This document shows, piece by piece, positions 9,679-57,464 of a stretch of DNA of 64,000 nt (its first letter is position 1; every line of letters starts with the position of its first letter). Origin of the DNA: Flavobacterium album (lineage in GTDB: Bacteria > Bacteroidota > Bacteroidia > Flavobacteriales > Flavobacteriaceae); assembly GCF_003096035.1 (NCBI RefSeq), contig NZ_CP029186.1, positions 1,129,001 through 1,193,000 of the forward strand, in the 5' to 3' direction. Position numbers and translations under genes: made by a program. The notes below the pieces were generated by a model that saw only the letters and a list, made by a program, of their open reading frames with translations, did not search any database and had not been told where the DNA came from.

Positions 9679-10230
9679 TTGAAATTAGAAACATTAGATA
9701 AAGACGGTACGTATCACATTTATAACAGAGGGATAAATGGCGAGCCTATTTTTCTTTCTGAAGAAAATAAAAAGTATTTTCTGAAGCTAATGGATAAATA
9801 TATAAATGAGGAAATAGACATTTTGGCTTACTGTTTAATGGATAACCATTTCCATTTCCTATTAAACATTGTATCTGAAGGTGATATTGCCACCCAAATA
9901 TTGTCAAATCTCTTTAATGCTTATGCAAAAGCTTTTAATAAAGCTAATAACAGAACGGGAAGCTTATTTGAAAAGCATTTTAAACGTATAAGAATTAGTG
10001 ATGAAGATTATTTACGACAGGTAGTGGTTTACATACATTTGAATCCGAAACACCACTTCGGGATTGATTTCACATCTTTTAGATATTCATCATTCAATGC
10101 TATTTTATCCGATAAAGACACGAAAGTTAATCGCAGTGAGGTGTTGGAACTCTTTGGCGATAAAGAAAATTACCTGTATGTTCATCAGTTTAAAAATGAT
10201 ATAATGAACGAACAGTTAACTTTAGAATAA
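9679..10230 (+). CDS. REP-associated tyrosine transposase (RAYT, Y1_Tnp family)
   Basis: A 183-aa single-strand HUH nuclease of the TnpA-REP group. From the TTG start at 9679, the N-terminal TYHIYNRGINGEPIF block is typical of RAYTs; the HUH motif is NHFHFLL with His57 and His59; the catalytic tyrosine is Tyr118 in VVYIHLNPKHH. No ATG fits the N-terminus; a TTG at 9655 lies within the repeat itself. RAYTs cut at REP hairpins and are thought to spread them; here palindromes of one family flank the gene on both sides. It is AT-rich against its neighbours and appears inserted between the AraC gene and hemH. Confidence 0.9.
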   Translation: MKLETLDKDGTYHIYNRGINGEPIFLSEENKKYFLKLMDKYINEEIDILAYCLMDNHFHFLLNIVSEGDIATQILSNLFNAYAKAFNKANNRTGSLFEKHFKRIRISDEDYLRQVVVYIHLNPKHHFGIDFTSFRYSSFNAILSDKDTKVNRSEVLELFGDKENYLYVHQFKNDIMNEQLTLE

Positions 10231-20106: not shown

Positions 20107-21396
20107 ATGCTGAAAAAGTTTTTTGCACTGATGTTCATTGCCTTCCCCTGCCTGCTTTTTGCACAGGAGCGCTATATTGATTTCATTGCACACGAAAGGC
20201 CGGAAGATGCAGAATACGACAGTATCAGTTGGCTTGGTAAAGATAAGATCCATCAGGGATTTACCCTGAAAGGCAAGAACGATCCAAAGTGCAGGCTTAC
20301 AGTTGTACCCAAAGGTGTGGTGCTATTGGAGCAGTCCCTCCAAAACAAATGGTATGTTGTAGATACATTATCTTATGTGGTATTCCCTGCCGATGAGGGA
20401 TATATTACACCTCAATTCATTATTACCGACTTTAATGAAGATGGCCTTGAAGACTTTATGTTCCTGCCGATGACCAATATGCATGGTGTTATGGGGTATT
20501 ACATTTACATGCAGGATGATAAGGGTACTTTAATTCCACTGAAAAACGAAGCATTTGTGGATGAAGATGATGATTCCTGGCCTGCGGCCAACTATGATGC
20601 AGCAACAAAGACCATTCATTGCGAAATGCCCGGAGGCGTGTTCGGATCCTCATGGGAAGCTACGTACCGGTTGGAAGGCTATATGGCTATCCCGCTGGAG
20701 ATGCATGTAGAGGTACGTAATAACCAGAGCTGGCTTGAGAAATATTTTAAGGGTGAAAAAGACCGCTGGGCGTTGGCGCGGCAGGAGATTGATGTGGCTT
20801 TGGGCCTGGGGTATGAGGATTATGACAAAATGGATGTTATACATTATAAGCTCGAACAGGATGGGGACGAAATACTAAAAATGTATACTGCCACCAGCGA
20901 TGAAAATGAAAACACGATCACTACCTACCAGGAAACGGTAACTGTTCCCGGATTTCTGGACGAGCTGTTTAGCCATGAACATTACGAATACTTTCCCGGT
21001 TTTTTGATAACCGATTTTAATAACGACGGCGACCAGGACCTTGTGATCTATACCGGTGCAGATGTGCATGGCAATTTGGAAACGCTTATATTTTTAGCTG
21101 ATCGCAAGACCAAAAAGCTGGTAAAGCTTCAAAACACAGCAGAAGGCACCGATGTGTGGGATACACCGGAATATGACCCCAAAACCAAGACCATTACCTG
21201 CAACCGTATCTCCGGTAATGCCGGGTTATCCTTTAGAAGTAGGTATAAGCTGAAAGGCTTCATAGCAGAACCGCAAACAAAAGAGGTACAGGACCGCACG
21301 AATGTTAATGGCGAAACAGGCAAGGGCTACAGCGAAAGCACCTATAAAGGCAAAAAGGGCAAATGGGTGTTGACAAATAAGGTAATAGATGAATAA
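20107..21396 (+). CDS. Secreted protein with FG-GAP/VCBS-like calcium loops
   Basis: A 429-aa secreted protein. The start at 20107 (MLKKFFALMFIAFPCLLFAQ) gives a proper signal peptide with cleavage before ERY; an upstream in-frame ATG at 20056 would bury it. Two loops match the DxNxDGxxD calcium-binding pattern of FG-GAP/VCBS repeats: ITDFNEDGLEDFMFL and ITDFNNDGDQDLVIY, each followed by a long beta region ending in similar W-x-x-x-YD-x-x-TKTI-x-C segments, so the protein is an internal duplication. Role unknown; probably surface or periplasmic. Confidence 0.82.
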   Translation: MLKKFFALMFIAFPCLLFAQERYIDFIAHERPEDAEYDSISWLGKDKIHQGFTLKGKNDPKCRLTVVPKGVVLLEQSLQNKWYVVDTLSYVVFPADEGYITPQFIITDFNEDGLEDFMFLPMTNMHGVMGYYIYMQDDKGTLIPLKNEAFVDEDDDSWPAANYDAATKTIHCEMPGGVFGSSWEATYRLEGYMAIPLEMHVEVRNNQSWLEKYFKGEKDRWALARQEIDVALGLGYEDYDKMDVIHYKLEQDGDEILKMYTATSDENENTITTYQETVTVPGFLDELFSHEHYEYFPGFLITDFNNDGDQDLVIYTGADVHGNLETLIFLADRKTKKLVKLQNTAEGTDVWDTPEYDPKTKTITCNRISGNAGLSFRSRYKLKGFIAEPQTKEVQDRTNVNGETGKGYSESTYKGKKGKWVLTNKVIDE

Positions 21397-21400
21397 ACGC

Positions 21401-21475
21401 TGTCATTCTGAACGGAGTTTGCGAAGTGAAGAATCTCTTTTGGTTTGTTTAAAGATTCTTCCTTCGTCAGAATGA
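21401..21475. repeat. Family D solo repeat 1
   Basis: Arms TGTCATTCTGAACGGAG...GAAGAATCTC and AAAGATTCTTCCTTCGTCAG-AATGA, about 75 bases. The left arm has nine to ten extra bases relative to the right. Confidence 0.85.
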
Positions 21476-21486
21476 AAGCCGACCTC

Positions 21487-21890
21487 TGTCATTCTGAACG
21501 TAGCCTGCGGAGTGAAGAATCTCAAATCTCATCATTCAGGAATTTCCATCCCGGATTGAAGTCGTCAATAAGTTTATTTTTCTTTTCCCTGGTCCACCCT
21601 TTTATTTGTTTTTCCCTGTCAATTGCAATTTCTATATCCTGGTAGTGTTCAAAATAAACTAAATAAAAGCATTTATATTTTGCAGTAAAAGCTTTAGAGT
21701 AAGGTTCCGGATTTCGGTGATAATAAATCCTTTCTTTCAATTCATTGGTAACGCCGGTGTATAAAACGGTTTTTGCTTTATTAGTAAGCATGTAAACATA
21801 GTAATTATGTGTTCCTAAAGTTTTATACATGAATCAAATATAAGATTTATTTCATGAGGAACAATTTGAGATTTTTCCGTCAGAATGACA
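21487..21890. mobile_element. Family D element carrying a GIY-YIG gene
   Basis: A 404-base unit with long arm 21487-21527 (TGTCATTCTGAACGTAG...GAAGAATCTCAAAT) and short arm 21864-21890 (ATTTGAGATTTTTCCG then TCAGAATGACA) as terminal inverted repeats. Between them is one GIY-YIG nuclease gene whose TGA stop is inside the long arm. The arms have the same asymmetry as the gene-less copies at 21913-21989 and 22012-22090. Interpreted as the full-length form of the repeat. Confidence 0.65.
21522..21830 (-). CDS. Single-domain GIY-YIG endonuclease
   Basis: A 102-aa protein that is just one GIY-YIG domain of the small UvrC-N-like type. The two motif strands are YVY (11-13) and YTG (24-26); Arg34 in LKERIYYHR, Glu73 in DREKQIKGW and Asn92 in DDFNPGW complete the expected catalytic set, so it looks active. 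The family makes metal-dependent DNA cuts; many are homing enzymes. The gene lies precisely between the arms of a family D repeat, and its last codon and stop fall in the long arm. It is AT-rich. No other gene is in the element. Confidence 0.9.
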   Translation of the reverse strand: MYKTLGTHNYYVYMLTNKAKTVLYTGVTNELKERIYYHRNPEPYSKAFTAKYKCFYLVYFEHYQDIEIAIDREKQIKGWTREKKNKLIDDFNPGWKFLNDEI

Positions 21891-21912
21891 CAACGTAGGT
21901 AATAAAATGTTC

Positions 21913-21989
21913 TGTCATTCTGAACGGAGTTTGCGAAGTGAAGAATCTCTTTTGGTTTGTTTAAAGATTCTTCCTTCGTCAGAATGACA
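21913..21989. repeat. Family D solo repeat 2
   Basis: 77 bases, TGTCATTCTGAACGGAG to CTTCGTCAGAATGACA. It follows the GIY-YIG element after a 22-base spacer (CAACGTAGGTAATAAA then atgttc). Confidence 0.85.
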
Positions 21990-22011
21990 CAACGTAGGTA
22001 ATAAAGCATTC

Positions 22012-22090
22012 TGTCAGTCTTAACGGAGTTTGCGGAGTGAATAATCTCGTTTACGTGGACTCTGGAGATTCTTCCTTCGTCAGAATGACA
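22012..22090. repeat. Family D solo repeat 3
   Basis: 79 bases, diverged left end TGTCAGTCTTAACGGAG, right end CTTCGTCAGAATGACA. It follows repeat 2 after another 22-base spacer (CAACGTAGGTAATAAA then gcattc), forming a tandem array with a unit near 99 bases. The 300-base gap between the GIY-YIG and HD genes holds only this array and a family G repeat. Confidence 0.85.
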
Positions 22091-22102
22091 CAACGCGCCA
22101 AA

Positions 22103-22133
22103 AACCGCGACTGCGACTGAAAATTGAAAACTA
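22103..22133. repeat. Family G repeat, short copy
   Basis: On the minus strand: TAGTTTTCAATTTTCAG then TCGCAGTCGCGGTTTTTGG. It lacks the GCCTGCC hairpin. The leading TAG is the stop of the HD-domain gene. Confidence 0.65.
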
Positions 22134-22778
22134 CTTTTCCCCCTTCCACTCTCCATAAAACTGCTCCAAAAAGCCTTCCATATACTGGTGTCTTCCTTCG
22201 GCAATTTTCTTTCCGGTGGCGGTATTCATCCTGTCTTTTAGAAGTAATAGCTTTTCGTAAAAATGGTTGATGGTGGGTGCGGTAGTATTTTTATATTCCT
22301 CTTTATCCATGTCGAGGTTGGGTGCAATGGCTGGGTCGTACATGCCGCGGTTCTTGAACCCGCCGTAATTGAACGCCCGCGCAATGCCTATCGCACCTAA
22401 TGCATCCAGCCTGTCGGCATCCTGTACGATGTCGAGCTCTATAGAATCGAATTTTCGTTCGAAATTGCCGCCCTTGAAAGAAATATTCTCAATGATGTTT
22501 ACCACATGTATGATAGTATCTTCGGCCACACCCTGCGCCGAAAGAAAGCGCCATGCCAGAGTTGGGCCAACCGTTTCATCCCCATCGTGGAACTTGCTGT
22601 CGGCAATATCGTGCAGTAGCGCACCCAACTGCACCACCAGCAGGTCGCAGTCCTCGCCTTTGGCAATATTCATGGCATTGTTATACACCCGCTCGATGTG
22701 GAACCAGTCGTGGCCGCCCTCGGCATGGGCAAGCTGTGCTTTAACAAAGGCTATAGTGATGTCTATCAGGTTGGTCAT
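22131..22778 (-). CDS. HD-domain phosphohydrolase
   Basis: A 215-aa HD superfamily hydrolase. The metal ligands are His in GGHDWFHIERV (about 18-28), the His-Asp pair in GALLHDIADSKFHDGD (about 50-65) and Asp in DADRLDALGAIG (about 115-126), the pattern of YedJ/YpgQ-like nucleotide phosphohydrolases. It probably cleaves nucleotides or related phosphates; substrate unknown. Its TAG stop is the first codon of a family G repeat. Confidence 0.88.
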   Translation of the reverse strand: MTNLIDITIAFVKAQLAHAEGGHDWFHIERVYNNAMNIAKGEDCDLLVVQLGALLHDIADSKFHDGDETVGPTLAWRFLSAQGVAEDTIIHVVNIIENISFKGGNFERKFDSIELDIVQDADRLDALGAIGIARAFNYGGFKNRGMYDPAIAPNLDMDKEEYKNTTAPTINHFYEKLLLLKDRMNTATGKKIAEGRHQYMEGFLEQFYGEWKGEK

Positions 22779-47854: not shown

Positions 47855-47932
47855 TGTCATTCTGACGAAGGAAGAATCTCTTAACCGCTCTTGTTTTGAG
47901 ATTTCTCTCTCCGCAAGCTCCGTTCGAAATGG
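47855..47932. repeat. Family D solo repeat 4 (diverged)
   Basis: TGTCATTCTGACGAAG-GAAGAATCTC at the left and GAGATTTCTC then CTCCGCAAGCTCCGTTCGAA at the right: the short and long arms are in the opposite order to the 21.4-22.1 kb copies, and the outer end of the long arm has decayed. Confidence 0.7.
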
Positions 47933-56679: not shown

Positions 56680-57464
56680 AGCTCCGGAGGAGCGGCCTAT
56701 TTATAGCTAAAAATTTAACGAAATTATCTAAAGCTCCGGAGGAGCGATATATAATTCACGCTTCCTCGAAAATAAATTCTTCCTTAAAATCAACATTGTA
56801 AAGTTTTAAGAATTCTAAATATTCTTCCCTGAATGTTTTTGTCTTATGATGCTCTTCTTGGTTTTGGATATAATTTATAACTTTTGTCAATTGTGAATGG
56901 CCACATGAAAATGCTCCAAAACCATGCTGCCATTCGAATTTCCCTGCGATCCATTTTTGAGTATTGATAAATTTAGAGGAACTTGCTTTAATATCGCGTA
57001 CCAGATCAGACAATGCTATCGTTGGTTTTAAACCGATGAGAATATAGATATGGTTAGGCATGCCATTTATGGCGATCAATTTTTGCCCATCATTGGTAAT
57101 GATGCCTGTTATATATTTATACAATTCATCTTTCCATCTGGGAGATATAAGATTCAATCTTCCTTTTACAGCAAAAACGATATGAATGTATATTTGCGAA
57201 TAAGTGTCTGCCATTTTATATATCACTCCTCCGGAGTTTTTAGAAAAGATACGTATTTAATCCTATAAATATACCGCTCCTCCGGAGCTTTGAAATACGG
57301 TTATGTATTTGCTGTAAATACATCAGGGGTTGACTATCACTGTCTGTTTAAAATAGTTAGAAATTACAACAGATATCTTGGGCATTCAGGCCAACTCCGG
57401 AGGAGTGGTATATTTATAGCCTTGGATCTATCGCAAGTACAAAAGCTCCGGAGGAGCGATATAT
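56680..57464. mobile_element. Transposase with six family B hairpin repeats
   Basis: Six copies of a GCTCC-gga-GGAGC hairpin followed by G(A/G)TATATTTATAG-like sequence: 56680-56707, 56731-56752, 57218-57240 (reverse), 57263-57292 (reverse), 57393-57420 and 57442-57464. They flank an IS200-like transposase on both sides. In copies 3 and 5 the stem is ACTCC/GGAGT: paired changes keep it. Confidence 0.75.
56756..57214 (-). CDS. IS200/IS605-like Y1 transposase, HUH motif altered
   Basis: A 152-aa TnpA of the IS200 type. The N-terminus YSQIYIHIVFAVKGR and the C-terminal GFGAFSCGHSQLTKVINYIQNQEEHHKTKTFREEY are complete, with the expected catalytic tyrosine in NYIQNQ. The HUH motif, usually PNHxHxL, reads PNHIYILIG: the second His codon CAT has become TAT. 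This may disable metal binding. I chose the ATG at 57214 (MADTYSQIYIH). No TnpB or accessory gene accompanies it. Confidence 0.88.
   Translation of the reverse strand: MADTYSQIYIHIVFAVKGRLNLISPRWKDELYKYITGIITNDGQKLIAINGMPNHIYILIGLKPTIALSDLVRDIKASSSKFINTQKWIAGKFEWQHGFGAFSCGHSQLTKVINYIQNQEEHHKTKTFREEYLEFLKLYNVDFKEEFIFEEA

Follow-up and report, generated by a model that had tools for sequence, protein, structure and literature searches.

A small GIY-YIG nuclease gene between inverted, C/TGTC-tagged REP-like hairpins in Flavobacterium album and many other bacteria

The RAYT/REP systems, also known through their arrangements as REPtrons, BIMEs and REPINs, consist of one small gene, encoding a Y1 HUH transposase, that is flanked by two inverted hairpins with a GTAG tag, along with many gene-less units found elsewhere as single copies, pairs or arrays. 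The type of repeat follows the enzyme, there is no general target duplication and, according to the available portion of the discoverers' report, RAYT genes are always flanked by two inverted REPs (PMC2817692). The repeats tagged with CGTC or TGTC form one of the two REP superfamilies described in the available text of Di Nocera et al. 2013 (PMC3733652), where they are reported from five phyla, with a stem that opens with AT in its two initial positions, and are presented as being without a dedicated transposase. In the same text the CGTC-1 repeats of the Neisseriae are equated with dRS3, the Rickettsia RPE-4 and RPE-6 elements are included in the superfamily, and Azospirillum lipoferum and Sinorhizobium meliloti are both named among the species that carry CGTC repeats. 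For the dRS3/NIME elements of Neisseria a phage integrase is named as acting on dRS3 in the accessible parts of PMC3898611 and PMC2911385, while the term GIY-YIG is absent from such text of PMC3898611 as is accessible. The available part of PMC9465073 names a RayT and a GIY-YIG gene, unlinked to each other. No report of a link between a GIY-YIG gene and hairpins of this kind was found in the literature searched, the scope of which did not extend to bioRxiv preprints and most subscription papers.

The window, a stretch of 64,000 nucleotides from the 3.98-Mb, single-contig genome of F. album (G000), contains a small gene placed between inverted TGTCATTCTGA arms, with three gene-less copies adjoining (table 1). 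The first-pass annotation had described a complete GIY-YIG gene between inverted arms, and this was confirmed, the 102-residue product comprising the GIY-YIG domain in full (Pfam PF01541, E 1.1e-14). Residues Y13, R34 and N92 are invariant across a 35-member alignment of homologues, and the catalytic Glu is either E61 (nearly invariant) or E73 (invariant); the Tyr, Arg, Glu and Asn that we take to be the catalytic residues of the superfamily, including this protein, are thus present together with the fold. The AlphaFold2 model has a mean pLDDT of 92.6, and its best match among PDB structures is 1zg2 (E 9e-4), followed by Slx1 (E 0.04). By sequence and predicted fold the gene is that of a GIY-YIG nuclease, and the predicted fold appears near to those of branched-DNA nucleases. 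The small UPF0213 proteins (1zg2, 1ywl) and Slx1 share the fold, and UPF0213 also the size, but they are distant in sequence from the window protein (best E 1.6e-5). Membership of the RAYT family, defined by a Y1/HUH enzyme of the IS200/IS605 type, was rejected for a protein with a PF01541 match and the GIY-YIG fold. The genes named 'putative endonuclease' form a very large set, at least 7998 relatives having been scored in one search, and the window genome itself holds three homologues.

Table 1. Features of the window; positions are counted from its first letter, with genome coordinates in brackets where given.
Feature	Position	Strand	Remarks
Left (long) hairpin arm	21487..21523	+	TGTC tag, stem class TTCT/AGAA
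Small single-domain GIY-YIG nuclease gene (by sequence and predicted fold)	21522..21830	-	102 aa; stop codon overlaps inner edge of left arm
Right (short) arm of gene-bearing element	21867..21890	-	TGTC tag, stem decayed by one base
Gene-bearing element: GIY-YIG gene between inverted arms	21487..21890	.	404 bp
Gene-less element: long arm, loop, short arm	21401..21478	.	Outer end of short arm mutated
Gene-less element	21913..21990	.	76 bases identical to copy at 21401
Gene-less element	22012..22090	.	Left arm partly decayed
Gene-less element, opposite orientation	47855..47927	.	One arm decayed
Y1 transposase	56858..57202 (G000:C1:1185858-1186202)	-	PF01797, E 7e-26; own different palindromic repeats, no TGTC arms
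Second Y1 transposase	9709..10038 (G000:C1:1138709-1139038)	+	PF01797, E 8.7e-7; other palindromic repeat family, no TGTC arms

The four gene-less copies that had been reported with the same ends and the same asymmetry are all present, and one arm is indeed longer than the other where both are intact (34 nt from GTCAT to ATC for the long arm, 23 nt for the short one), but the copies at 22012 and 47855 have each one decayed arm. The identical stretch in the first two copies comprises the 76 bases from 21400 and those from 21912, and the right arm of the gene-bearing copy falls one base short of the hairpin rule. As to the stop codon, placed by the first-pass annotation inside the long arm, the overlap is real but limited, only the GA of TGA (21522-21524) being shared with the GA that opens the arm's GAGATTC. 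A known RNA element was set aside, with no Rfam match at 21300-22200. In the whole genome GTCATTCTGA occurs 38 times against 2 for the reversed control, and a longer arm pattern gives 68 matches against 2 for its control; this recurrence is not due to chance.

Read inward, an arm opens with TGTC, followed by AT with a variable triplet and by GA; after a loop whose length varies come the triplet's reverse complement, AT and mostly CT or CC. The arms are REP-like hairpins, with a TGTC/CGTC tag, a stem that begins with AT and contains covarying bases, and a CT or CCA tail. The pairing was evaluated on 318 half-arms from 76 loci, for which GTCATxyzGA was the sole search pattern and the best 80 loci of named genomes were covered up to a distance of 400 bp. 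The exact complement followed by ATC was found downstream in 203 of the 318, the mean being 46 and the maximum 63 when the triplets were re-dealt 1000 times. The search rules presuppose a complementary AT at the start of the stem, so that this feature is partly circular; the count of 203 was obtained with GTCATxyzGA alone required. Ten triplet classes pair in at least half of the cases, some of them with very few cases: TCT/AGA in 74/89, CCT/AGG in 39/58, GCT/AGC in 31/35, TTC/GAA in 16/21, TGC/GCA in 14/18, TCC/GGA in 12/21 and GTT/AAC in 4/5, the other three classes being smaller. The CCC class pairs in 4/15 and the TCA class in only 2/30, TCA being mostly followed by AGA, so that the third pair of that class would be A.A. 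Single arms fold weakly as DNA, with energies of −0.9 to −2.7 kcal/mol that are equalled by 24 to 165 of 200 shuffles in the seven arm stretches folded, some of which cut the arm short. Thus, it is the covariation that argues for a folded arm, whereas the predicted DNA stability does not.

The tag adjoins the stem as in the CGTC/TGTC superfamily. In gene-less pairs, 143/161 and 141/161 arms carry a T ahead of GTCA, while in alpha-proteobacterial, Aeromonas and Neisseria loci the base before GTC is mostly C. A stem of 8-9 bp with a loop of 4-5 and a CCA tail is seen in TTCCC and TCCTCGGG units, and the stem of the TTCCC-type arm is the ATTCCC-N8-GGGAAT of dRS3/NIME as given in the accessible parts of PMC3898611 and PMC2911385. 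The repeats as described in the available text of PMC3733652 share with the arms the tag and a mostly head-to-head dimeric arrangement and, apparently, the AT at the start of the stem and an unpaired tail that is mostly CCA; the window arms differ in being short-stemmed (approximately 5 bp), longer-looped and CT-tailed, and the superfamily lacks a dedicated transposase in that text whereas here a GIY-YIG gene is a regular partner. From these sequence features, the arms appear to match the CGTC/TGTC REP superfamily, to which Neisseria dRS3 belongs.

The association of gene and arms extends well beyond this genome. The titles of the best 80 loci from named genomes include Bacteroidota, Clostridia, Deltaproteobacteria, Calditrichota, Cyanobacteria, Anaerolineales, an acidobacterium, Bifidobacterium and others; 77 of the loci were usable, the other three (L070, L087 and L090) lying at contig ends. 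With a strict arm rule, an arm was found within 300 bp of 66/77 genes against 56/543 other ORFs of the same loci, and inward arms were present on both sides of 42/77 genes against 4/543 ORFs. With a relaxed rule any arm within 300 bp was found for 67/77 genes and 99/607 ORFs, and nearest arms pointing inward on both sides for 31/77 and 1/607, respectively. A test independent of the motif, in which a flank inverted-repeat score of at least 12 was required, selected 53/78 genes of the best named loci and 50/729 control ORFs. In the genus, 88 loci among the matches listed were considered (30 and 58 more, the window gene included, with L036 and L064 being the same place). Here any arm within 300 bp was seen at 86/88 loci versus 8/43 control ORFs, and on both sides the nearest arms pointed inward at 38/88 versus 0/43. 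Inward arms are therefore found at many small GIY-YIG genes, though not, as stated for RAYT, at every one. Several of the ten loci of the best 80 that lack an arm by rule show decayed or longer-looped arms by eye. That most homologues would be without arms, which the first-pass annotation had regarded as fatal to its reading, is not what was found.

These controls bear on another possible explanation, namely that the arms are ordinary terminator hairpins in gene gaps and that a small gene merely happens to sit there. Arm pairs do look as bidirectional terminators might, but control ORFs with inward arms on both sides are nearly absent from the same loci (the 1/607 and 0/43 just given), and the arm class agrees with the protein tree, as detailed below. 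By taking both into account, coincidence is refuted as the sole explanation and is considered extremely improbable overall.

Of 20 further regions, from nine genomes of the phylum and chosen chiefly because copies cluster there, 13 contain one or more rule matches within 450 bp, a few of them doubtful, and seven contain none; in one genome (G300) none of four regions has an arm by rule and three of the four show variant arms by eye. A protein search of a plasmid collection returned 35 records, some apparently chromosomes filed as plasmids, from which 15 loci were taken for variety. By rule, ten of the 15 show a C/TGTC hairpin at a distance of up to 450 bp, namely those of A. lipoferum, S. meliloti, Rhizobium, Shinella, Sphingobium, Aeromonas, Spirosoma, Planktothrix, Photobacterium and N. 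gonorrhoeae. The Photobacterium locus has hairpin units on one side only, at least 227 bp away, while the N. gonorrhoeae homologue has units of the dRS3 type on both sides. The other five (L371 and L382-L385) are without an arm by rule, a match at L385 having been judged spurious, and some of them show other inverted repeats by eye.

In the window genome all three homologues are bracketed by inverted arms, and no arm lies within 700 bp of the six other GIY-YIG matches, a match at 353 bp from one of them (L178) being judged spurious. Of these six, a frame of 605 residues is regarded as UvrC, three others measure 462-464 residues, and the remaining two adjoin tRNA genes, one of the two being broken. 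Likewise, the 12 GIY-YIG matches of six arm-rich genomes without a match of the A1 class are all free of arms within 300 bp; the 12 include, in G408, a small gene of another kind (104-residue frame).

Small GIY-YIG frames beside tRNA genes were encountered in this genome (L178, L182) and in G005 and G139 (L287, L288, L290, L300), and on the opposite side there is another tRNA copy, either whole or, by eye, partial. The tRNAs detected with ARAGORN are Asn (twice) in L178, Pro and Ser in L182, Val in L287, Ile in L288 and Ala in L300, with none in L290. These frames may possibly represent a tRNA-targeting GIY-YIG lineage. In G139 (G139:C1:1850616-1853114) seven matches (L288, L291, L294 and L296-L299) follow each other in tandem at a spacing of approximately 374 bp; each is a GIY-YIG frame that contains a single TAG stop and adjoins a tRNA-like piece. 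Three more distant small GIY-YIG genes (L281, L282 and L295) are flanked, by eye, by a repeat with CACTCGAACTGACG and TCTCGATACA, which may represent one more class of repeats served by a nuclease of its own.

The type of arm follows the type of protein. In the window genome, the window gene has TTCT arms, a paralogue 73% identical to it (L002) has TTTC arms and another, 47% identical (L003), TTGC arms. The nearest inward arms of one gene are of the same stem class in 51/69 cases, approximately 12 being expected. On a FastTree phylogeny of 123 proteins, from which 30 of 153 had been dropped for their unlike arms, the arm class changes 35 times, whereas 300 label shuffles give 79 changes on average and never fewer than 71. 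The values are 15 changes versus a mean of 43 and a minimum of 37 for the genus alone (76 rows), and 22 versus 30 and 25 for the named genomes alone (47 rows). Shared descent of the genomes can add to this agreement; because three paralogues within one genome carry three arm types, the data suggest that it is the gene, not the genome, that sets the type of arm. The proposed joint evolution of gene and repeat is therefore supported, as is the parallel drawn with RAYT/REP despite an unrelated nuclease fold.

Arms are also more numerous where the gene is present. Among 150 congeners, 114 of which have a gene match at E ≤ 1e-8, the median arm excess over a reversed control pattern is 14 with the gene and 3 without it (p 1.8e-7), and an excess of at least 10 is found in 69/114 and 7/36 genomes, respectively. 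Among 296 genomes of the phylum, 163 with the gene and 133 without it, the medians are 45 and 23 (p 6e-12), and an excess of at least 100 is reached in 27/163 and 3/133. Of the genomes without a gene match 18/133 still have an excess of at least 50. In both sets some of the genomes counted as without the gene may be misses, since for many genomes not all first-look candidates were scored in the gene search. In G166, 700 matches to the arm pattern (control, 24) coexist with only two GIY-YIG frames, of 609 and 460 residues, and no small GIY-YIG gene. Such genomes indicate that arms can persist, and perhaps spread, without the gene. The link across genomes is clear but not strict, and the abundance of arms in genomes lacking the gene, which had been named as evidence against the first interpretation, is in part observed (the 7/36 and 18/133 above).

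Arm-rich genomes without the gene would also be expected if the arms belonged to another transposase, of the DDE or the Y1/RAYT type, and the GIY-YIG gene were a passenger of its MITE. This reading is considered very unlikely by taking into account the association with one and the same gene family in many phyla, the lack of a general target-site duplication in gene-less pairs and the presence, beside the genome's own Y1 transposase genes, of different repeats. In 161 gene-less pairs with distinct flanks no general duplication was detected (lengths 2-6, offsets 0-4), the values being near those of shuffled sequences; two combinations exceeded all 200 shuffles (offset 3, length 6, six pairs; offset 4, length 4, seven pairs) and are perhaps due to repeated flanks. 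A MITE of a DDE insertion sequence was rejected on this result. The two Y1 genes of the window lie beside CTCCGGAGGAG and CCTGCAAGG..CCTTGCAGG palindromes. Neither has a GTC-tagged arm, and a match to a TCCA tag 304 bp from L302 was judged spurious. With other palindromic repeats and no TGTC arms at the Y1 genes, both kinds of system coexist in the window, and a Y1/RAYT enzyme was set aside as the mobilizer of the TGTC arms. The term 'MITE-like' of the first-pass annotation is likewise not the best one for REP-like hairpins that show no general target-site duplication and form alternating arrays. An array of two alternating arm types with the gene in one spacer is found at L332, and nested units are common in G166 (L404-L433), with a TGCT/TCCT pair inside a TTGC pair; both resemble BIMEs.

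Homing GIY-YIG endonucleases of the I-TevI type have the same catalytic domain and insert selfishly into specific sites, and homing into existing repeats is the main rival to be weighed. The repeats would have an origin and a role of their own, as terminators or as the repeats of another enzyme, and the gene would end up between arms because its nuclease cuts the repeats and is copied into them, moving no arms. Comparison of related strains, in which the first-pass annotation had proposed to look for empty sites, did provide sites without the gene-bearing element in three genera. In A. lipoferum the gene and CGTC arms lie between sufB and sufC, 617 bp apart, where A. ramasamyi, A. oryzae and strain B510 have gaps of 87-129 bp. 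In S. meliloti, strain Ak57 carries a whole gene together with a 3' remnant, while strain K101 has no gene at that site and one elsewhere. At a Sphingobium site, TYG46 has arms and gene, TYG74 a single C/TGTC palindrome and TYG72 neither, a series that would suit homing. The absence of the gene-bearing element could in these cases also reflect its loss. Homing would further accommodate the arm-rich genomes without a small GIY-YIG gene, the occurrence of the gene in either type of spacer (the nearest arms face outward at 9/77 of the best 80 named loci and at 11/88 genus loci among the matches listed) and the match, below cut-off, of a group I intron endonuclease model to one homologue. However, it accounts poorly for an arm class that tracks the protein clade, for two arms that match each other and for the larger number of arms in genomes with the gene. 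Homing nucleases are common in phages, yet at E 1e-5 a single query (L107) matched none of 50,697 phage records, and a phage homing nuclease was set aside on this result. Moreover, differently from homing endonucleases, the present protein has a single domain, with no second DNA-binding domain and no intron, and the gene has its own inverted hairpin arms. On the whole, homing is considered unlikely, although less so than the passenger reading.

Gene-less units also vary between Flavobacterium congeners. Two 400-kb stretches (G088 and G109, 88% identical in the aligned parts) differ by two gene-less units of 98-99 bp that are present in G109 and absent from G088 between conserved flanks, and one array differs by one unit (80 bp), while one cluster is common to both. 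No exact insertion junction was obtained from these stretches, 8 of 23 arm clusters being unplaceable in the other genome, and G015 and G077 shared too little for junctions to be found.

The observation is therefore confirmed as real and wider than first reported, and its first interpretation is supported in part. The reading that we prefer, and consider probable, is that gene and arms together make up a selfish system of two components, similar in its working to RAYT/REP but with an unrelated enzyme; the small GIY-YIG gene would act like a RAYT, but is not one. Two C/TGTC hairpin units in inverted orientation would make up the gene-less unit, and two inverted units with the gene between them the master element. 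The nuclease would recognize its own class of hairpin in single-stranded or extruded DNA, as on the lagging strand or in a cruciform, and would cut beside the TGTC tag; single-stranded action is suggested by analogy with that reported for RAYT. We infer that the enzyme moves or copies the hairpins. GIY-YIG enzymes hydrolyse rather than join DNA, and transposition would for this reason need host repair, which would copy or move the unit from the broken ends to another place, often next to or into another copy, with gene-less pairs being moved in trans. With somewhat less assurance, the balance is also taken to tip slightly towards a broader proposal, that a stand-alone GIY-YIG nuclease of approximately 100 residues is the missing mobilizer of the whole C/TGTC REP superfamily in many phyla, Neisseria dRS3 included, and thus the enzyme of a second, independently evolved REP system in which hairpins spread without intron or reverse transcriptase.

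If the link holds, a function would be available for the very large set of genes now named 'putative endonuclease'. The question of the enzyme of the CGTC repeats, as raised in 2013 in the available text of PMC3733652, would become testable with one small protein and one hairpin, and the result would bear on the dRS3 arrays that are implicated in Neisseria rearrangement in the accessible part of PMC3898611. Finally, F. album would harbour two convergent selfish repeat systems inside one genome.
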